The translations under genes were made by a program, and so were the position numbers. The notes below the pieces were generated by a model that searched no databases, was not told the DNA's origin, and saw only the letters and a program-made list of their open reading frames with translations. 23,375 nucleotides of DNA from a virus, in IMG/VR virus record IMGVR_UViG_3300032050_000838, positions 1-23,375 of that record; one strand, written 5' to 3'. Positions 8,916 through 18,585 of this stretch are shown here, piece after piece (position 1 is the stretch's first letter; the number at the start of each line of letters is the position of its first letter).

Positions 8916-9530
8916 GTGAGTCCATTAGAGCGTTTTCCAAGCGGTATAGGCATACATTTAAGAGCCGCAGTAGCACCAGTTCCTGCACCTATACCTGCCC
9001 CAATTCCTGCTCCAGTGCCTGCACCTATTCCTGCACCTATTCCTGCACCTATCCCAGCACCTGTACCTGCACCTATCCCTGCTCCTGCGCCTGCGCCAGT
9101 AGCCCCAAGTCCAGTTGCACCTTCACCTGTTGCGCCTTCACCAGCACCTGCGCCTGTTGCGCCAAGTCCTGTTGCGCCAAGTCCTGTGGCACCTTCACCT
9201 GCTCCAGCACCTGTTGCTCCAAGTCCTGTGGCACCAAGCCCAGTTGCTCCAAGCCCTGCACCTGCTCCAGTAGCACCGTCACCAGTGGCTCCTTCACCAG
9301 TTGCACCTTCTCCAGTTGCACCTTCTCCAGTGGCTCCGTCACCTGTGGCTCCAAGCCCAGTGGCACCTTCTGGATGTATTCCTGCAAATGGATGCGTACC
9401 TGCATCAGGTGGCCCATCAAGATGTGGAACTTCAAATTGCTGCCAGTGTGAAATTGACGGTTGTACACTTCAAGTATGCTGCGTACCTTGCGGTGGAACA
9501 TGGACTGGAATCAACTGCGATCCATGCTAA
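8916..9530 (+). CDS. Proline-rich repeat protein with cysteine-rich C-terminus
   Basis: 204 residues from GTG 8916, chosen because AAGGAG lies at 8905-8910. Residues 1-18 are a short non-repetitive head. Residues 19-152 are almost only Pro, Ala, Val/Ile and Ser: first PAPIP/PAPVP units, then 16 PVAPS units arranged as three 19-residue super-repeats (three PVAPS plus PAPA) and a run of seven. This should form an extended polyproline II rod. Residues 153-204 have 12 cysteines, including two CC pairs, suggesting disulfides or metal binding. There is no membrane segment or signal peptide. It follows the tail-tip gene and precedes a prolyl-hydroxylase-like gene. A tail-tip fibre or virion decoration is my inference; alternating Ala-Pro/Ser-Pro resembles plant arabinogalactan-protein modules. 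Confidence 0.8.
8967..9371 (+). repeat. Proline-codon repeat tract (PAPIP and PVAPS units)
   Basis: The tract encodes residues about 18-152 of the proline-rich protein. 15-base units vary freely at third positions (CCT, CCA, CCC; GTT, GTG, GTA), so the protein repeat is conserved more than the DNA, suggesting selection on the peptide rather than recent slippage. A 57-base higher-order period is visible in the middle. Confidence 0.85.
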
Positions 9531-10042: not shown

Positions 10043-10639
10043 ATGAATAAAGAAGAAATAGCACCTGGAATAGTAGTTTATAGCGATGTAATTCCTGATA
10101 GCGAAAATCTATATAATGAAATAGAAGAAGGAATGCAGTCTGCTGGCATATCTTGGGGCGAGGCAAGGGTAAAAGAGCAAGATGCTAACCATGTCAATCC
10201 AAATGCAAGAGATACAAGTATCATAGGTGTTCCTTACAGAGGACTAACAGAAGTAAATACTGCAAGTTTAGCAGATCTATTTAATAAAAATCTTAGTGAT
10301 TTATTCTTTACTCATTTTGATCCTCTTGAAGCAGACTACAAGGCAATGTTTGCTATAGATACTGACTGGCATGATACTTTTGGAATTCTAAAATATGGAA
10401 AAGGCCAAAAGTTTACTAATCATATAGATGATTGCAGTGAATTTCATAGACGAGTATCTACTGTTTATTATTTAAATGAAAATTACACAGGTGGAGAAAT
10501 TAACTTCCCTCGTTTTGGTATCACATTTAAGCCAAAGGCTAATCAGATGATTGTATTTCCATCTACATTTGTTTATAACCATTCTGTTTCTCCAGTTGTT
10601 GAAGGAACAAGATATGCCGTAGTAAGTTGGTTGCGATGA
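10043..10639 (+). CDS. Prolyl-4-hydroxylase-like 2OG-Fe(II) oxygenase
   Basis: 198 residues, ATG 10043 with CGGAGG at 10032-10037. The double-stranded beta-helix core is in the C-terminal half: His127-x-Asp129 (TNHIDD), the strand STVYYLNENYTGGEINFP, a P-K-A-N-Q-M-I-V-F-P segment, His180 (YNHSVSPV) and Arg190 for the 2-oxoglutarate carboxylate. This is the P4H arrangement (HxD...H plus a downstream basic residue). Such enzymes use Fe(II), O2 and 2-oxoglutarate to hydroxylate peptidyl proline or other side chains. It lies three genes after the proline-rich repeat gene, the obvious candidate substrate. DNA or nucleotide hydroxylation is the alternative. Oxygenase class is strong; substrate is inferred. 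Confidence 0.85.
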   Translation: MNKEEIAPGIVVYSDVIPDSENLYNEIEEGMQSAGISWGEARVKEQDANHVNPNARDTSIIGVPYRGLTEVNTASLADLFNKNLSDLFFTHFDPLEADYKAMFAIDTDWHDTFGILKYGKGQKFTNHIDDCSEFHRRVSTVYYLNENYTGGEINFPRFGITFKPKANQMIVFPSTFVYNHSVSPVVEGTRYAVVSWLR

Positions 10640-11196
10640 AAGATCCATTAGTTGTAAATGACCTTTTAAGTCAAGAAGACTATGACAGACTTCTACTTGC
10701 CCTGGCAAATCCTAAGAGTTTTGAATATTCTGCGGGATTTAGCAGGTACTGTATTGCAGACAATAGCCTACCTATTCTAAAAGAATTAGCAGATAAATTA
10801 GTGCCAAAGGCAAGAGAAGCATTTAATAGCGAAGGTTTACTGCCTACATATGCCTTGTTTGCACATTATGAAGGTCAAGATCCTGAACCAAGTTTATACA
10901 AGCATAAAGACGATAACGCATGTACTTATACTCTTGATATGTGTGTTTATCAGGTAGAGCCATGGGACCTGTTTGTAGATGATAAGGCTTATACGCTTTA
11001 TCCAAATCAGGCACTTGCCTACTATGGAAATGATCAATGGCACTGGAGAGAGAAGTTTCCAAATCCAGAGACTAATCATGTTGCTATGATTTTCTTCCAC
11101 TTTGCAGAACCTGACCATTGGTATTTTACTAAAGGGCCAGATTATCTAAGAGTAATTAGGGGCGAAATAACAGAAGATGAATGGAACAACAGATAA
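10636..11196 (+). CDS. Second 2OG-Fe(II) oxygenase-like protein
   Basis: 186 residues from ATG 10636, which overlaps the previous TGA as ATGA; a TTG at 10627 is in frame but not needed. Likely iron ligands are His90-x-Asp92 (YKHKDD) and His136 in the motif QWHWREKF, with Arg138 as 2-oxoglutarate anchor; the trailing MIFFHF strand also fits. The HWRE motif occurs in a distinct branch of 2OG oxygenases that differs from the P4H upstream, so the two are not recent duplicates. It may hydroxylate a different residue, or the sugar. The C-terminal 25 residues are an acidic, Trp-containing tail. The fold assignment rests on motifs alone. Confidence 0.68.
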   Translation: MKDPLVVNDLLSQEDYDRLLLALANPKSFEYSAGFSRYCIADNSLPILKELADKLVPKAREAFNSEGLLPTYALFAHYEGQDPEPSLYKHKDDNACTYTLDMCVYQVEPWDLFVDDKAYTLYPNQALAYYGNDQWHWREKFPNPETNHVAMIFFHFAEPDHWYFTKGPDYLRVIRGEITEDEWNNR

Positions 11197-12217
11197 AATA
11201 TTCTTCCAACTGTGGAATCCTACAGGTCTAATCAATCAGGTAATGAGCCTGGAATTAGCAATAGGTCTGTCACATGAAACAAAAGCACCTGTTGTAGTGC
11301 ACTATGTAAGCAATAATGGTGACAATCTATATGATTTTAGAACTGTTCCAATCTACACACCCTCAAGATGGTACAACGGACAAAGAGAAGGTTTTACCAA
11401 TCCTGACCAGTTCCCACATCTTTTAGACCTTCTTGATTTTGATGCAAACATCATAGTTGTTGATGAGAAAATAAATACATTCAAGCAAGAAGAAGTAGTC
11501 ATAGGTGATATGATGAATAACTACTACTATAGTAATCAGCCAGAAATAACAGAATATGAACTGGCATTTGCAGAAGGTAGACAAAGATTACCATTAGATA
11601 AGCCAATACACCTAAAAGGAACATTAGGCTGGTACTCAAGATTCTTTTATGGCAGAAGCCCTGAACTAAATAAGACATTATCTTCAGTTAAATTTAAGAA
11701 GGAATATACTGATTTGGCTCACAAAATATCTGCATCTTTGGGTACATTTCAGGGTATGCATTTAAGGCTATCTGATCATATTAAAATGTTTGAGACTACC
11801 CAAGAAATGTTTGAAGACTGGCTAAATAAATTTGAACAGAATAATATACCAATTGTAGTATCTACCTGTGAACCAGGACATAAAATGGTTCAAGATAATA
11901 AACATAGATTTACTCTATTAGATGAGTACATTGTAAATAACTTTGCAGATGACTTTAAATCCCTGCCATTTCAAGACGAAGTGGTATTTGGCTTAATCTG
12001 CAATTTAGTCCTACATGATTCTGTAAATTTTGTGGGTACATCAGGAAGTACTTACAGTGCTTATATCCATAGAATAAGAAATCAAAAGGGCATTGAGACA
12101 TGGGATTTCTTTGATAACCCACCAAAAGCAGAAGGATGGGCATACTCCTGGTTTAACTATCCATTAGATAATGGCAGGAAAATGTGGTGGCGTGAATGGG
12201 AAGAGTCAAAATGTTAA
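11177..12217 (+). CDS. O-fucosyltransferase-like glycosyltransferase
   Basis: 346 residues, ATG 11177, overlapping the previous gene by 20 bases. The N-terminus GLINQVMSLELAIGLSHE is the GDP-fucose protein O-fucosyltransferase-like loop (G-x-x-N-Q-x-x-x-L). About residues 193-202 read GMHLRLSDHI, the H-x-R-x-x-D-H element that contacts the donor phosphates in this family. A C-terminal VNFVGTSGSTYSAYIHRIR fits the conserved acceptor/donor-side segment. No signal peptide, so it acts in the host cytoplasm. In plants fucosyltransferases accept GDP-L-galactose, which the GDP-mannose 3,5-epimerase at 15515 could make. The acceptor may be a hydroxylated residue, given the two oxygenase genes directly upstream. 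Confidence 0.7.
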   Translation: MNGTTDKIFFQLWNPTGLINQVMSLELAIGLSHETKAPVVVHYVSNNGDNLYDFRTVPIYTPSRWYNGQREGFTNPDQFPHLLDLLDFDANIIVVDEKINTFKQEEVVIGDMMNNYYYSNQPEITEYELAFAEGRQRLPLDKPIHLKGTLGWYSRFFYGRSPELNKTLSSVKFKKEYTDLAHKISASLGTFQGMHLRLSDHIKMFETTQEMFEDWLNKFEQNNIPIVVSTCEPGHKMVQDNKHRFTLLDEYIVNNFADDFKSLPFQDEVVFGLICNLVLHDSVNFVGTSGSTYSAYIHRIRNQKGIETWDFFDNPPKAEGWAYSWFNYPLDNGRKMWWREWEESKC

Positions 12218-12288
12218 AAAGAATTAAATATAAGTTTAAGATGTGGCGTAAATACAGAAAAATACCTAAAGGTGGAGTAATCTACTAA
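12211..12288 (+). CDS. Very small basic peptide (25 aa), probable coupling ORF
   Basis: ATG 12211 lies seven bases before the stop of the glycosyltransferase gene and seven bases after GGGAAG; the stop TAA at 12286-12288 overlaps the next ATG. The 25-residue product (MLKRIKYKFKMWRKYRK...) has 11 Lys/Arg. Size and basic character resemble the 34-residue ORF at 848, though they are not clearly homologous. It may simply carry ribosomes across the gap. Confidence 0.45.
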   Translation: MLKRIKYKFKMWRKYRKIPKGGVIY

Positions 12289-13220
12289 TGCTATTTGATG
12301 TATTTAATCCCAGAGTTATTCCTCATATTGGTTATGATAAGACTAATCCTAAGAAAGATTATTCTCAATCCCAGCCAATTTTAGCCAGTCATTCTGAGGT
12401 TGCAAGACCAGAATATAACTATGAATGGAATAGCGATGGTCTGAGGTCCATAGAATTGTCCACAAGACCCTCTGTAATGGCTTTAGGATGCTCTATAACG
12501 CTTGGACAGGGCCTTCCTAATGATATGGCATGGCCCCAACTGCTATCAGGCCTCTATGACGCTCCTGTGGCTTCTATAGCCTACTCTGGAGCCTCTGCAA
12601 ATAAGTTAGTTTCCAGTTTCTTTGGAGCCATACATCAATATCAGTATAAGCCAGATATAGTCATTGCTCATTTTGCTAATTTTGAGAGATTTTATTTTAT
12701 AGATGGGTATGCAAGTGGGCTTAGGGATTGGTATGCCAACCACTCACCTAAAGTCACTAAGGCTACAGCCCCTTGGAATTATCAGGAAATCTTGCCCTAT
12801 GAATGGGTTTATTACCAGAATTTGGATCATATCAAGATGCTTGAGGCGTTTTGTGAAGCGGCAGGAATAAAGTTATATTGGTCTTGCTGGTCAAATGGAC
12901 TAACAGATGAACAAGAACAATTTTTAAAAGATAACTTTAGACACTACATACCAGATCCTACAAGAAAGCAATTTCCATCAAGTTTTGAATTTGGAGTTTT
13001 TGTTAATAATATTTCTGACTTACCTCCTCATTATGAAATGATAAATTGGCCAGGATGCCACTCAGAATGGAAAGAAAAGCATCCAGATGTATTTGACTAT
13101 GCCTACGATTATCATAAATTTTCTGGAGATTGGGGGCCAGGTGCTCATTGGCCTCATCCAGGATTGCATAGACAGTTACATATCGCAGAATTTTGGAATG
13201 AACAACTATGCCAGAAATAG
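12288..13220 (+). CDS. SGNH/GDSL-family hydrolase
   Basis: 310 residues; ATG 12288 overlaps the preceding small ORF stop. Residues 63-75 read VMALGCSITLGQG, the GDSL-type block I in which Ser69 would be the nucleophile. A central FANFERF (about 129-135) could give the block III Asn131, and a C-terminal DWGPGAHWPHPGLH (about 281-294) supplies the D-x-x-H-like and H-P pair. SGNH enzymes in glycan clusters remove or transfer O-acyl groups. It sits between two glycosyltransferase-like genes, so action on the same glycan is likely. A first 45-residue segment precedes the domain without signal peptide. The catalytic Gly block is the least clear. Confidence 0.72.
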   Translation: MLFDVFNPRVIPHIGYDKTNPKKDYSQSQPILASHSEVARPEYNYEWNSDGLRSIELSTRPSVMALGCSITLGQGLPNDMAWPQLLSGLYDAPVASIAYSGASANKLVSSFFGAIHQYQYKPDIVIAHFANFERFYFIDGYASGLRDWYANHSPKVTKATAPWNYQEILPYEWVYYQNLDHIKMLEAFCEAAGIKLYWSCWSNGLTDEQEQFLKDNFRHYIPDPTRKQFPSSFEFGVFVNNISDLPPHYEMINWPGCHSEWKEKHPDVFDYAYDYHKFSGDWGPGAHWPHPGLHRQLHIAEFWNEQLCQK

Positions 13221-14098
13221 TTAAAGAATTTCCAACAGATGATGGAATAGGTGCCATGCTATGGAAAAAGATCTATGCCATGTCCTATGCTAAACAACAG
13301 AATAAATTGTTTGAAGATACTCCACTTAAGTGGTTCTTAATACATTCATCAGATAATATCAAGAGTGAAGATGACCCAAAATATGCTGAGATGCTTGAGA
13401 AATTTAATAATGTTCTACTAAACCCTTGGAAAGATATAGATTTTGATTCTATTCCAGATAAAACATTATGTCCTCATATTGGTCTTGGATGGTCACATGC
13501 TCCAGGAATTATTGCAGAAACAGATTTCTTAGACTATGCACCAGAATTTAATAAGTTTTCTGACACAGTTCATAACTCAATAGTCATACATATTAGACGA
13601 GGAAATGCTGTGCCTGAAAATCCAAGGTACACAGAAGACAAGTTCTACTTTAACCTACTAAAAGACATACCTAAGATAATACAAGATTTACAATTAGATA
13701 ACCCAAGAGTCATTATTACTACTGATGCAAGAAACGAAGAGCCATATACTCCTGTAGGCGAGAAACAAAAGATGTTTAATTGCCAGCCATATTTACATAA
13801 AGATGAGTTTGGTAGATATCCAACAACAGGAATTGATATAGATTTACTTAAAAGTGCTTACCCTAATGTTGAGATAATTGATTACTTAGATACCTATGAT
13901 GCTTTTATTCTTATGCTTACCGCCAAAGTTTTGATAGTTGGGAACTCTGCATTTAGTCAATCTGCTGGATTATTATCTACAAACATGGTTATTGCTATGC
14001 CACCAAAAGAAGGCATGAGTCATATATTAAACAGATTTAAAAATAAAGTTGGACAACTAAACAAAGAGGGGCGTTATGAAAATTCTTGGAATCAATGA
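13208..14098 (+). CDS. Fucosyltransferase-like glycosyltransferase (GT11/GT-B type)
   Basis: 296 residues, ATG 13208, overlapping the SGNH gene by 13 bases. About residues 124-132 read IVIHIRRGN, matching the H-x-R-R-G-D/N motif of alpha-1,2 and alpha-1,6 fucosyltransferases that binds the GDP-sugar. The N-terminal DDGIGAMLWKKIYAM corresponds to the G-x-G-N-Q-like loop, and VGNSAFSQSAGLLS (about 246-260) fits the conserved SSFS-like element. Predicted cytosolic. Two distinct fucosyltransferase-like enzymes in one cassette suggest at least a two-step glycan. GDP-fucose or another GDP-hexose is the probable donor; acceptor unknown. Confidence 0.68.
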   Translation: MPEIVKEFPTDDGIGAMLWKKIYAMSYAKQQNKLFEDTPLKWFLIHSSDNIKSEDDPKYAEMLEKFNNVLLNPWKDIDFDSIPDKTLCPHIGLGWSHAPGIIAETDFLDYAPEFNKFSDTVHNSIVIHIRRGNAVPENPRYTEDKFYFNLLKDIPKIIQDLQLDNPRVIITTDARNEEPYTPVGEKQKMFNCQPYLHKDEFGRYPTTGIDIDLLKSAYPNVEIIDYLDTYDAFILMLTAKVLIVGNSAFSQSAGLLSTNMVIAMPPKEGMSHILNRFKNKVGQLNKEGRYENSWNQ

Positions 14099-15518
14099 AA
14101 CAACACATGATGCATCAGTAACTCTTATAGAAGACGGAAACATATTATTTGCTGGACATGCTGAAAGATTTAGCAAAGAAAAAAATGACTGGTATACAAA
14201 TGACGAATTAATAGATTATGCATTGTCTTACGGAGAACCAGACAGAATAGCGTATTACGAACATAGATGGCTGAAGAAGGCGAGAATAATTACTCGTGGT
14301 GGCTTTGGCGGAGGAAAGCCCTATTATCTCAACAGAGCAGATTTGAAATGGGTGCCAAGAGAATCATTTAGCCACCACTACTCTCACGCTGCAGCAGGGT
14401 ACTACACAAGTAAATTTGATGACGCAGCAATAGTAGTCTTAGATGCAATAGGTGAATTTAACACAACATCTATTTGGGTAGGCGAAGGCTCTAACATAAA
14501 GTCAGTTGAGAAGAAAAACTATCCATTTAGTTTTGGTCTTTTCTACTCAGCCTTTACAAATCTTGTAGGACTAAAGCCTAACGAAGAAGAATATATCTTC
14601 ATGGGAATGGCGGCATATGGAGATTGGCGTAAGTATTATAAATACATAGAATCATATTTTGACAACAAAGATAGACAAGCATATAACTTCCATAGAGGAA
14701 TACATGACTGGCCAATTCCAATAACAGAGCAGGATAGATTTGATATTGCTGCTGCTGTACAACATGTTTATACAGTTAGGCTTTATGAATTTATGATGCA
14801 TGTTAAAAGAATAACTGGCAAGAAAAACCTTGTATTTATGGGTGGATGTGCTTTGAATTGTTCAGCCAATACAAGACTGTGGGAATTATTTGATGATATT
14901 TGGATCATGCCTAATCCTGGTGATGCAGGCTCTTCTTTAGGTGCCGCCGCAGCAGCGTATGGTAAGCATGTAAACTGGCAACATCCATATCTTGGCTATG
15001 ACTTAGGTGGTCCATATCCAGTAACAGATATTATTACAGGATTGATCAGAGACAAAGTAGTTGCTGTTGCTTCAGGCAGAGCAGAGTACGGTCCAAGGGC
15101 TTTGGGTAACAGAAGTATTCTGGCTGATCCAAGAGATCCTGATATCAAAGACAAAGTAAATTTAATTAAGAAGCGTGAACTATTTAGACCATTTGCTCCT
15201 GTAGTGATGGAAGAACATGCTCATAAATGGTTCAAGATGGACTTTACAAGTCCGTACATGCAGTATGCAGTAGAGTGCTTACAACCAGACAAGATTCCTG
15301 CTGTCGTTCACAAAGACGGTACTTCAAGAGTACAAACAGTCAATAAAGAACAACATCCAGGATTATACGAAGTGTTATCAAACTGGTATGCCATGACTGG
15401 AGTTCCAGTGTTGTTAAACACAAGCCTAAATATAAAAGGGCAACCTCTTCTCAATGACGAGAATGACATTGTTGAGTGGGAGAAAACTTACAATACAAAG
15501 ATAGCGGGGCGAAAATGA
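14076..15518 (+). CDS. O-carbamoyltransferase (NodU/CmcH/TobZ family)
   Basis: 480 residues, ATG 14076 after GGGGCG. The start KILGINETTHDASVTLIEDG is diagnostic of the family. The Kae1-like domain has the metal-binding HHYSHA motif (His100, 101, 104), followed by AIVVLDAIGE and FMGGCALNCSANTRLW. The C-terminal YrdC-like domain has GRAEYGPRALGNRSILADPR (from about 334) and FRPFAPVV. These enzymes make carbamoyl-adenylate from carbamoyl phosphate and ATP and carbamoylate a sugar hydroxyl, as in Nod factors, tobramycin and bleomycin. It is shorter than typical members (about 550-600), missing the last tail after LNTSLNIKGQP. It overlaps its neighbours on both sides (23 bases and 4 bases). Substrate is probably the cassette's glycan. 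Confidence 0.9.
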   Translation: MKILGINETTHDASVTLIEDGNILFAGHAERFSKEKNDWYTNDELIDYALSYGEPDRIAYYEHRWLKKARIITRGGFGGGKPYYLNRADLKWVPRESFSHHYSHAAAGYYTSKFDDAAIVVLDAIGEFNTTSIWVGEGSNIKSVEKKNYPFSFGLFYSAFTNLVGLKPNEEEYIFMGMAAYGDWRKYYKYIESYFDNKDRQAYNFHRGIHDWPIPITEQDRFDIAAAVQHVYTVRLYEFMMHVKRITGKKNLVFMGGCALNCSANTRLWELFDDIWIMPNPGDAGSSLGAAAAAYGKHVNWQHPYLGYDLGGPYPVTDIITGLIRDKVVAVASGRAEYGPRALGNRSILADPRDPDIKDKVNLIKKRELFRPFAPVVMEEHAHKWFKMDFTSPYMQYAVECLQPDKIPAVVHKDGTSRVQTVNKEQHPGLYEVLSNWYAMTGVPVLLNTSLNIKGQPLLNDENDIVEWEKTYNTKIAGRK

Positions 15519-16471
15519 AGACAGCATTAGTACTTGGAGCAGGCGGATTTATAGGTAGCCACTTAGTCAAAAGACTAAAAGAAGATGGCTTCTGGGTTCG
15601 TGGAGTAGATCTTAAACATCCAGAGCACTGGGAAACATACGCTGATGACTTTGTAATTGGAGATTTAAGAGATCCAAGCGTTATAGAAAAAGTAATGCCA
15701 ATAAGATTTGATGAAGTGTATCAATTGGCTGCTGACATGGGTGGAGCAGGTTATATCAACTCTGGAGATAATGACGCAGAGGTTATGGGTAATTCAATAC
15801 TCATAAATGTTAATGTTTTAAAACAAGCAGAGAAGGTAAGAGTTAAATCTATATTCTTTTCATCTACCGCTTGTGTGTATCCAGAATATAACCAGATGGA
15901 TCCAGGCAGCATAAACACAAGAGAAGATTCCGTATATCCAGCAGCACCTGACACAGAGTACGGTTGGGAAAAATTATTTAGTGAGCGTTTATATCTTGCC
16001 TACAATAGAAATTATGGCATGAAGAACAAGATAGCCAGATACCACAATGTATATGGACCATACGGTACATGGGATGGCGGTAAAGAAAAGGCACCAGCAG
16101 CAATTTGTCGTAAGGTAGCAAAAGCAACAGATGAAATAGAAATCTGGGGCGATGGTAATCAACATAGATCCTTCTTATACATTGATGAATGTATCAAAGC
16201 AACAGTAGATTTTTATAGACAAGACAAGTACTTTGAGCCAATAAATATTGGTTCTGAGAGAAATGTGTCTATAAATGAGTTGGTGGATATTGTCTGTGAA
16301 ATAGCAGGCAAGAAACTAACTAAGAAGCATGTGCCAGGTCCTCTTGGTGTCCATGCAAGAACTTCACACAATGAACTAATAACATCTGTGTTGGGTTACG
16401 CTCCAGATGAAAACTTGGAGTATGGCCTTACCCAGACTTATCAATGGATACAAGGAGAACTAAACAAATGA
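15515..16471 (+). CDS. GDP-mannose 3,5-epimerase-like NAD-dependent enzyme
   Basis: 318 residues from ATG 15515, which overlaps the previous TGA; GGGGCG lies just upstream, while a GTG at 15476 lacks a site and would be internal to the previous gene. It is an extended short-chain dehydrogenase: GAGGFIG (8-14) for NAD, Cys120 in SSTACVYPE, catalytic Tyr149-x3-Lys153, and the segment NVYGPYGTWDGGKEKAPAA (about 178-196), near-diagnostic of plant GDP-mannose 3,5-epimerase, where Cys and the Lys of EKAPAA are catalytic. Later blocks GDGNQHRSFLYIDEC and NIGSE also match. The product would be GDP-L-galactose, with GDP-L-gulose by partial reaction. Host GDP-mannose would be the source. Confidence 0.87.
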   Translation: MKTALVLGAGGFIGSHLVKRLKEDGFWVRGVDLKHPEHWETYADDFVIGDLRDPSVIEKVMPIRFDEVYQLAADMGGAGYINSGDNDAEVMGNSILINVNVLKQAEKVRVKSIFFSSTACVYPEYNQMDPGSINTREDSVYPAAPDTEYGWEKLFSERLYLAYNRNYGMKNKIARYHNVYGPYGTWDGGKEKAPAAICRKVAKATDEIEIWGDGNQHRSFLYIDECIKATVDFYRQDKYFEPINIGSERNVSINELVDIVCEIAGKKLTKKHVPGPLGVHARTSHNELITSVLGYAPDENLEYGLTQTYQWIQGELNK

Positions 16472-17180: not shown

Positions 17181-17388
17181 AGCCAAAATCGTAAAGTCCA
17201 ATAAAGAAAAAGCAATTGCAATGGCCCAGTCATGGGCAAGAGCATCATTTGCCTCAGTTGTAGCCCTCTACATGAGCGGAATCACTGATCCAAAGGTATT
17301 AGCAAACGCATTTTTAGCAGGCTTGCTTGCACCTTTAGCAAAGGCTCTACAGCCAAATGAAAAAGAGTTTGGCGTAAATAGCAAATAA
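17173..17388 (+). CDS. Holin candidate (two short hydrophobic helices)
   Basis: 71 residues, ATG 17173 overlapping the endolysin end by 8 bases, with AAGGAG at 17159-17164. After a basic N-terminus comes SWARASFASVVALYMSG (about 17-33), a loop with ITDPK, then LANAFLAGLLAPLAKAL (about 39-55) and a polar tail. This W-x-R-A, S-G-loop, small-residue-helix pattern fits holins next to endolysins in actinophages and cyanophages. The segments are short but suitable for a two-helix holin. It could alternatively be an antiholin of the 16468 protein. Confidence 0.7.
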   Translation: MAKAKIVKSNKEKAIAMAQSWARASFASVVALYMSGITDPKVLANAFLAGLLAPLAKALQPNEKEFGVNSK

Positions 17389-17398
17389 CTGCTATACT
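17369..17398 (+). promoter_or_regulatory. Predicted promoter of a short transcript
   Basis: TTGGCG (17369-17374), 18-base spacer, TATACT (17393-17398) with extended TGC. The -10 and next bases (17393-17411) match 20326-20344 at 18 of 19 positions, supporting a real initiation region. It lies over the end of the holin gene. Confidence 0.5.
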
Positions 17399-17404
17399 TA
17401 TACT

Positions 17405-17483
17405 ATGCAGTCAGGTCACACTCACACTTAAGGGAATTTGGACTATCACTGCAGAGGGCCTGGAAGCAATTCTGGGCCTTTTT
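17405..17483 (+). ncRNA. Candidate short RNA (~79 nt), promoter to terminator
   Basis: Predicted start near 17405 (7 bases after TATACT) and end at the terminator T-run. The first bases form a 6-bp stem TGCAGT/ACTGCA (17406-17411 with 17448-17453) directly next to the terminator hairpin. No ORF of useful length lies inside. It could be a small regulatory RNA, or a leader ended by attenuation. Existence of promoter and terminator is moderately supported; the RNA itself is inferred. Confidence 0.4.
17455..17483 (+). terminator. Rho-independent terminator after the endolysin-holin genes
   Basis: Bases 17455-17465 pair with 17470-17480 (11 bp, three G-U) around the GNRA-type loop GCAA, followed by TTT and an overall run of five T. 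A classic intrinsic terminator shape. It ends the late lysis transcript and the candidate short RNA. Confidence 0.8.
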
Positions 17484-17562
17484 AACATAACGGGACAACC
17501 AAGGCCTGAAAGTGTCTGAAATCGCCTTATACGGCTTTTAAAGGGCATCTGGAAGGAAACTC

Positions 17563-17604
17563 ATGGGGCGATTCATGGGGCTAACCAAGGAGAATACCTA
17601 TTAA
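17563..17604 (+). CDS. Possible 13-codon minicistron coupled to the transglycosylase
   Basis: ATG 17563 with GGAAGGAA (17551-17558) upstream encodes MGRFMGLTKENTY and stops at TAA 17602-17604, overlapping the ATT start of the next gene (17600). It is too short to judge by composition. Its interest lies in position: a stop-start overlap would deliver terminating ribosomes to the weak ATT codon. Confidence 0.35.
   Translation: MGRFMGLTKENTY
17587..17592 (+). promoter_or_regulatory. Ribosome-binding site that selects an ATT start
   Basis: A perfect AAGGAG at 17587-17592 ends 7 bases before ATT 17600. No ATG, GTG or TTG exists in that frame before 17711, so this site decides the start of the transglycosylase. 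Confidence 0.65.
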
Positions 17605-18001
17605 TAAAAATACAATAATCGGAGGATTATTTGTAGTCATAGCAGTTTTATTATTACAAGTAAGTACTCCACAACCAGCAGTTCCAGTAGTTTATGAGCC
17701 AAGACCTCCAATGATGCAGGTCAATGCAAAGGCGGTAGCGAAAGAATTGCTAACAAAAGAACAATTCTCATGCTTTACCAAGTTGATAGGAAAAGAATCA
17801 GCCTGGAATCCTAAAGCAGAAAATCCAATTTCTACAGCCAGTGGAATAGGCCAAATGCTTGATTCAACTTACGAAGGATTAGGCATGAAAAAATCCAATG
17901 CGGGAATAGCACAATTAGTTGCTACCCTTTCATATATTTCAAGAAGACATGTTCATCCATGTAATGCATGGGAACACTTCAAAAATAAAGGCTGGTATTA
18001 G
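17600..18001 (+). CDS. Membrane-anchored lytic transglycosylase, ATT start
   Basis: 133 residues if initiated at ATT 17600. The extra N-terminus is MNKNTIIGGLFVVIAVLLLQ: a short basic-polar head and one transmembrane segment or uncleaved signal, then a Pro-rich linker (22-39). Starting at ATG 17711 would give 96 residues lacking export signal. The domain (about 48-133) is a small SLT-type lysozyme fold: Glu66 in IGKESAWNPKA as catalytic acid, then NPISTASGIGQMLDSTY, the conserved G-x-x-Q-x element, and two Cys (58, 121) that may form a disulfide outside the cell. It would cleave glycan strands, complementing the M15 endopeptidase. It lies in its own unit after a terminator. Confidence 0.78.
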   Translation: MNKNTIIGGLFVVIAVLLLQVSTPQPAVPVVYEPRPPMMQVNAKAVAKELLTKEQFSCFTKLIGKESAWNPKAENPISTASGIGQMLDSTYEGLGMKKSNAGIAQLVATLSYISRRHVHPCNAWEHFKNKGWY

Positions 18002-18004
18002 AGT

Positions 18005-18034
18005 TTGACATGATACAAGTCGTGATGGTATAAT
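18005..18034 (+). promoter_or_regulatory. Consensus sigma70 promoter
   Basis: TTGACA (18005-18010), 18-base spacer, TATAAT (18029-18034) with extended TGG. Both hexamers are perfect consensus, the strongest promoter in the window. Predicted start 18041. Confidence 0.82.
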
Positions 18035-18040
18035 AATTAT

Positions 18041-18137
18041 ATTGGTTGCCATAATCAATAATAAATGTCAGAACACCTCCTGACTATAGCCTCCAAGGTA
18101 GTTATCTCAATTTCCGCCTTGGAGGTTATTTTTTTTT
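18041..18137 (+). ncRNA. Candidate small RNA (~97 nt) with anti-Shine-Dalgarno loop
   Basis: Driven by a perfect promoter and ended by a strong terminator. Three hairpins: one beginning at the predicted first base (18041-18047 with 18053-18059, one G-U); one with stem GTCAG/CTGAC (18067-18071, 18080-18084) and loop AACACCTC; and the terminator stem. Bases 18074-18081 read CACCTCCT, identical to the 16S rRNA anti-Shine-Dalgarno core, partly exposed in the second loop. C-rich loops that pair with Shine-Dalgarno sequences are a known design of Gram-positive small RNAs. No ORF with a ribosome-binding site fits inside. Function is inferred. Confidence 0.6.
18088..18137 (+). terminator. Strong Rho-independent terminator
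   Basis: Bases 18088-18098 pair with 18117-18127 (11 bp, one G-U; core CCTCCAAGG/CCTTGGAGG), 18-base loop, then nine consecutive T (18129-18137). Ends the candidate small RNA. Confidence 0.88.
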
Positions 18138-18145
18138 GCGGGAAT

Positions 18146-18174
18146 TTGCAATAGAAAAACTCATCTGCTACAAT
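18146..18174 (+). promoter_or_regulatory. Predicted promoter after the small RNA terminator
   Basis: TTGCAA (18146-18151), 17-base spacer, TACAAT (18169-18174) with extended TGC. Predicted start 18181, exactly the first base of a hairpin with stem AAGAGT/ACTCTT (18181-18186, 18201-18206). It probably drives 18586 and the genes after it. Confidence 0.65.
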
Positions 18175-18585
18175 AGTACCAAGAGTCTATATGGAAAGTC
18201 ACTCTTTAAAAAGACTGCCAAACAACTGAATAGATAAATATGGACATAAGTATACGACGAGCACACATAGTTTTATACGCAAGAAGGTTTCTTTACAAAG
18301 GCGTTTATCCCTTCGTTCATATTAGAAAAAATTATAAATCTACAAAACAATGTAGCCTATCCACATTTGGTCGTGTCACTGGGAGGATCAAAGTGTTGTG
18401 TGTTAAATATAGAAATATATTTAGTGAACGCTCCAGGTCAATGAATTATCATTGGATTTAATGTTTTAGGTGTTATATAGTTCCTTATATATAATATTAA
18501 AAAGCCAATTCATTAGAGGACACAAGGATAGGGCCTTTGCATGTTTAAATATTAAAAATTATATTTAGACAATTCAGGAGGAAAT
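18175..18585 (+). other. Gene-poor leader of about 410 bases
   Basis: Between the promoter at 18146 and the ORF at 18586 I see a 5' hairpin and no convincing gene. A 73-codon frame (18240-18461, starting ATG) has no Shine-Dalgarno, and its product is Arg/Lys/Tyr-rich (MDISIRRAHIVLYARR...), with rare-looking codons for this phage; a real small protein cannot be excluded. The remainder is AT-rich. A structured long 5' leader or an undetected RNA is possible. I found no tRNA cloverleaf. Confidence 0.4.

Follow-up and report, generated by a model that had tools for sequence, protein, structure and literature searches.

A phage small RNA family predicted to expose a copy of the 16S anti-Shine-Dalgarno sequence in changing scaffolds

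A short RNA locus in a clade of phages carries a copy of the anti-Shine-Dalgarno (anti-SD) sequence of 16S rRNA, and the locus, its predicted structure and the accessible motif are kept among relatives in scaffolds that change. We consider it likely that the locus encodes a trans-acting small RNA that lowers translation of a subset of mainly host mRNAs. A strong host-type promoter of its own would drive the RNA and an intrinsic terminator would end it. The functional element would be an unpaired copy of the 16S anti-SD sequence (CACCUCCU). Further pyrimidine-rich loops would assist it, as would, in many members, a GUUGCCAU loop that is the complement of AUGGCAAC. The RNA would base-pair with the ribosome-binding sites (RBSs) of mRNAs with strong SD sequences in competition with the 30S subunit, and translation, probably stability too, of the mainly host subset would fall during infection. 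The RNA is presumably expressed in infected cells, where the repression would be expected to affect the host and may benefit the phage.

Locus, promoter and predicted RNA

The sequence analysed, here called the window, is the whole 23,375-nt stretch of IMG/VR virus record IMGVR_UViG_3300032050_000838. A sigma-70-type promoter lies on its plus strand (18005-18034, +), with TTGACA at 18005-18010, TATAAT at 18029-18034, an 18-nt spacer and a TG before the -10 box. This promoter matches 12 of 12 positions, as the preliminary description had it, and is the only perfect one in the window, where shuffles predict 0.07. With the start site inferred from the promoter, the predicted small RNA is ~97 nt long (18041-18137, +). 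Its calculated fold of -30.9 kcal/mol (z = -5.9) was equalled by 0 of 200 shuffles, and the three hairpins that had been described from inspection were recovered in it. Hairpin 1 (18040-18060, +) contains the GUUGCCAU motif (18045-18052, +), the complement of AUGGCAAC, which is made of a start codon, an Ala codon and AC. Hairpin 2 (18067-18084, +) is predicted as GUCAG[AACACCUC]CUGAC and contains the anti-SD motif CACCUCCU (18074-18081, +). The strong terminator previously noted at the end of this span is an intrinsic one (18086-18137, +) in the predicted fold, with a 17-bp stem at 18086-18129 and nine T coming next, which would be nine U in the RNA.

The middle hairpin had been said to present the 16S-tail copy at its loop. 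In the predicted fold this is true of six of the eight motif bases, which are unpaired in the loop AACACCUC; the final two (CU) are within the stem. The asserted identity to the 16S 3' end was found as well, because the window RNA has 8 nt, CACCTCCT, in common with the 16S 3' end GGATCACCTCCTTTCT, which all 13 low-GC Actinomycetes genomes tested contain. The 8-mer CACCTCCT (18074-18081) has its sole exact copy in the window here, and ~0.5 copies are expected by chance, so that the match alone is within chance and relatives are needed to decide. The anti-SD match gains its significance from being conserved among relatives and not from the 8-mer itself. No conserved ORF was found within the RNA among the members, and a short coding gene was rejected, since the ATG frames vary between members and have no SD.

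The RNA unit separates the lysis genes from the operon that follows, and another promoter followed by a second, larger structured noncoding element comes directly after it. This conserved element of ~270 nt (18171-18440, +) has its own promoter (18146-18174) and recurs in relatives (L036:5577-, L037:6094-, L020:5549-, L018:5936-, L105:4997-, L004:5860-). Among seven relatives, its 50 predicted pairs show one broken cell and four pairs changed on both sides. It had no Rfam match at gathering score, and a 73-aa ORF at 18240-18461 is interrupted by TGA in L018 and is probably no gene. At least three versions of the structured element exist among relatives, and version B (ACTTCAGRGCGTTTAGAGATC..) or C (AATGCGCTACAGAC..) occupies the same place in others (L014:5684-, L026:2284-, L021:3595-, L033:5545-, L012:5604- and L016:5982-, L029:2407-, L023:5582-). 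This suggests a modular exchange of noncoding elements, in a region that resembles a cassette of noncoding RNAs.

Several other features were observed nearby. Just past the holin-like gene, a second promoter-terminator unit (17369-17485, +; L010:4666-) is a candidate small RNA, with the promoter TTGGCG-18-TATACT at 17369 in the window and TTGACA-17-TATAAT in L010. In almost every relative examined, the transglycosylase-like lysis gene (17600-18001, +) has an apparent ATT start 5-9 nt past an AAGGAG-type SD; a conserved AUU start codon of this sort is known from infC. An ORF near the tail genes (8916-9530, +) has long repeats of a 14-residue type and a cysteine-rich end. The ORF block between the tail and lysis genes (10043-16471, +), which includes a carbamoyltransferase (14076-15518) and an ORF that looks by eye like a sugar epimerase (15476-16471), perhaps serves surface glycan synthesis.

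Constant motif and changing scaffold among relatives

Relatives were gathered via the neighbouring M15 endolysin, which gave 80 contigs, and pattern scans gave a few more. The RNA unit was present in 29 of 29 close-clade contigs (lysin at least 74% identical) with ~1 kb or more past the lysin gene, and was not seen in the more distant contigs (lysin 68% identical or less). The homologous RNAs amount to 26 distinct forms in 15 groups below 80% identity. Promoters of the relatives match at 10-12 of 12 positions with spacers of 17 or 18 nt, and a terminator is found in every member.

CCUCC is present in all 26 RNAs, and the following base is U except in L010. The (R)CCUCC(U) motif is mostly unpaired in the predicted folds of all members, with a mean unpaired probability of 0.86 as against 0.40 for the whole RNA, and is less exposed in two of them (L105 and L003/L081, ~0.6-0.66). 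Shuffled 5' parts contain CCUCC by chance at a mean of 9% per group; the product over the 15 groups is ~3e-18, which is no true probability because the groups are related. Relative L024 has 12 nt, GGATCACCTCCT, in common with the 16S 3' end, and the longest 16S-tail copy among the members, GGAUCACCUCCU, is also from L024.

The place of the motif differs between members. It is seen in the hairpin-1 loop GUUGA[..]UCAAC in L003, L004, L015 and L016, in hairpin 2 (GUCAG[..]CUGAC, GUCG[..]CGAC or CAUCA[..]UGAUG) in the window, L024, L010 and L033, in both hairpins in L036 and L037, and single-stranded between two hairpins in L021, L022, L026 and L029. Hairpin 1 carries GUUGCCAU in about half of the members, with a stem that changes around the constant motif. 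The preliminary description had proposed a discrete small RNA with the exposed anti-SD sequence as its functional element, and had counted loop bases varying freely between conserved flanks as evidence against it; we observed the opposite, a loop that is kept and flanks and hairpins that vary, in line with the proposal.

Covariation had been anticipated in all three stems, and was seen in one. In the terminator stem, five of the nine counted pairs are changed on both sides with 100% paired, and its pairing and covariation scores exceeded those of every shuffled or slid version. Conservation does not extend to the two upstream hairpins, which are replaced, having been rebuilt with different stems in different places, and do not simply covary. 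A single covariance model for the whole RNA was accordingly judged unsuitable. The terminator loops of relatives are pyrimidine-rich (UCUCCU, UCCC, CUCUCAUUCUC).

These comparisons bear on the question of whether the RNA could be a cis element only, that is, an attenuator leader or the terminator that ends the late (lysis) operon, with CCUCC kept for the GGAGG arm of the terminator or for another local reason. The RNA does follow the last of the lysis genes, and the GGAGG in the 3' arm of the window terminator could pair with the CCUCC loop. However, a separate promoter lies directly after the terminator, no leader ORF is conserved, and a cis element would have no need of a motif that moves between hairpins. 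Furthermore, L020 and L036 have CCCC/GGGG as terminator arms and still CCUCC in the loop, so that the loop-arm pairing is lost. We therefore regard the cis reading as very improbable.

Several candidates from the wider scans were set aside. A host origin of the RNA was rejected, because the promoter-plus-motif pattern had 0 matches in 395 Actinomycetes genomes. Outside the clade, most viral contigs matching the promoter-motif scan had no terminator and no such fold, and the matches were taken as chance. A collection scan for GTTGCCAT-N3-33-CACCTCCTR was discarded as swamped, probably by ordinary gene starts on the opposite strand. The AGGAGGTG..ATGGCAAC arrangement on the minus strand of relatives was rejected as a real gene, since its frames end at differing points.

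Predicted pairing with host and phage mRNAs

Mycobacteriophage capsids share up to 44% identity with the phage capsid. Bacterial genomes with a relative of the lysin are for the most part actinobacterial, and two contigs are in MAGs that bear the names of other phyla; no close isolate phage was found. The clade probably infects freshwater actinobacteria, a group that counts among the most abundant bacteria of lakes and whose phages are only now being cultured (PMC10202952). Small low-GC Actinomycetes genomes, presumably Nanopelagicales-like to judge by their size and GC, served as stand-ins for the host, and the identity of the mRNAs that would be affected is a prediction from these stand-ins.

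In two host-like genomes, 69 and 86 strong sites for the anti-SD loop were predicted at gene starts, as against 11 and 15 inside genes. Loops shuffled at the same composition matched the number of strong RBS sites in 22 of 100 and 19 of 100 shuffles; about a fifth of them doing as well means that C-richness carries much of the RBS preference. The start region pairs strongly with the RNA in ~6-7% of genes in the two genomes, suggesting a target subset rather than a total block.

SD sequestration had been suggested as a way to switch off host or phage translation. The anti-SD element on which this idea was built is well supported; a general shut-off is not supported, given the small fraction of strongly pairing genes, nor is a discrimination of host from phage, as the SDs of both pair with the RNA about equally. 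The accompanying statement that AGGAG is used before most genes was too strong, as AGGAG is found at ~22% of the phage starts that have a detectable SD, pooled over the phage set. We also considered that the RNA might spare phage mRNAs through a purine after CCUCCU, but the duplex energies of host and phage SDs had no clear difference and this idea is unsupported.

The similar pairing of phage SD sites is what control of the phage's own genes would predict, with the RNA acting via phage RBSs on the timing of lysis or of the transition to the following operon. The position of the RNA between the lysis genes and that operon would suit such a role, as would the TTCAGGAGGAAAT found before the start of the first downstream gene in the window. 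Nevertheless, these phages have few AGGAGG-type SDs, which occur at differing genes in relatives, and the holin-like gene mostly has the start ATGGCTAA, a poor fit to the GUUGCCAU loop, for which reason it was also rejected as a two-loop target. Own-gene control seems quite unlikely to us.

One host gene stands out when both loops are considered jointly, which raises the possibility of an antisense RNA dedicated to a single host mRNA and repressing one essential protein, the conserved DUF4193 protein. In this reading AGGAGGUG would be bound by the anti-SD loop and the gene start AUGGCAAC by the GUUGCCAU loop; the two loops follow each other in the order that the DUF4193 arrangement AGGAGG-N3-14-AUGGCAAC requires. 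All 61 genomes examined from the host-like order have DUF4193, and a scan of them for AGGAGG-N3-14-ATGGCAAC hit it in 9 of 16 places; its start is ATGGCAAC in 14 of 17 readable cases. It ranked first of 1168 and of 1209 genes for the two loops jointly in two host-like genomes. On the other hand, about half of the members have other hairpins instead of GUUGCCAU, and GUUGCCAU is partly paired in several predicted folds. Against decoy start loops, GUUGCCAU was 12th of 1024 in G233, a genome picked after it had shown the DUF4193 pattern, and 125th of 1024 in G130; with such ranks DUF4193 is a lead and not a result. A dedicated DUF4193 antisense RNA is in our estimate unlikely. A broader version, in which the 16S-tail-copying phage RNA family would halt host growth at a few essential mRNA starts, DUF4193 foremost, within a cassette of exchangeable noncoding RNAs, is put forward tentatively and is likewise rather unlikely.

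Relation to known RBS-targeting RNAs and implications

As a probable trans-acting regulator of mainly host mRNAs, the phage RNA would belong to the RBS-targeting small RNAs, with which it has in common its own promoter, an intrinsic terminator, the lack of a conserved ORF and an accessible anti-RBS segment. We place it in this known kind as a new phage family, a variant set apart by exposing a literal 16S-tail copy on a scaffold that can be exchanged. No Rfam family, including the Yfr models, matched the RNA at gathering score in the window and 12 relatives, or near the locus with E values of up to 10 allowed.

The 6C RNA, or B11 (RF01066), is an actinobacterial small RNA with C-rich hairpin loops that represses by pairing with RBSs, and its overexpression halts growth (PMC10470900). 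The phage RNA is similarly short and actinobacteria-associated, with C-rich hairpin loops, a terminator and RBS pairing, the last only predicted here. In contrast, 6C is host chromosomal and its loops are C runs, whereas the phage RNA copies the 16S tail. The RF01066 covariance model found nothing at gathering score in the window and the 12 relatives, nor near the locus when E was relaxed to 10; where 6C is marked by two loops with runs of about six C, the phage RNA has CACCUCCU-type motifs in its loops. A search of 41 genomes from the host-like order recovered no 6C RNA.

Yfr1 and Yfr10 have a short C/U-rich anti-RBS motif that is single-stranded between two hairpins in Yfr1 and looped in Yfr10, and Yfr10 keeps this motif as the rest varies in sequence, structure and place (PMC6778093). 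The phage RNA resembles them in architecture only, as a conserved unpaired C/U-rich anti-RBS motif in a variable scaffold; the Yfr motif is a different one, and those RNAs are encoded on cyanobacterial chromosomes.

Two RNAs of phage origin are also comparable. The noncoding RNA from Pleft of mycobacteriophages L5 and D29 has no protein product, is strongly expressed and is toxic to the host (PMC5712189), and thus shows that actinophages can make a host-harming RNA. It differs in being ~500 nt long, processed and made early, and homology was rejected because the right end of D29 (48000-49127) contains no CCTCC on either strand. The c4 RNA of phages P1 and P7 blocks translation by pairing of its loops with an RBS (review, PMC12197685). 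Such loop pairing is only predicted for the present RNA; moreover, c4 acts on one phage mRNA (ant), has no 16S-tail copy and had no Rfam match in the window. We know of no sequence relation between the two.

Phage RNA-based interference with host translation initiation is little documented, and in the open-access literature searched a single paper mentions phage-encoded, small RNA and anti-Shine-Dalgarno jointly, its subject being a Caulobacter RNA sponge. If the present reading is confirmed, the unit of selection would be the exposed anti-SD sequence, with the scaffold free to change as reported for Yfr10. Such freedom of the scaffold would explain why model-based searches miss RNAs of this type, and the combination of a promoter, an accessible CCUCC and a terminator would then be a route to finding more of them.
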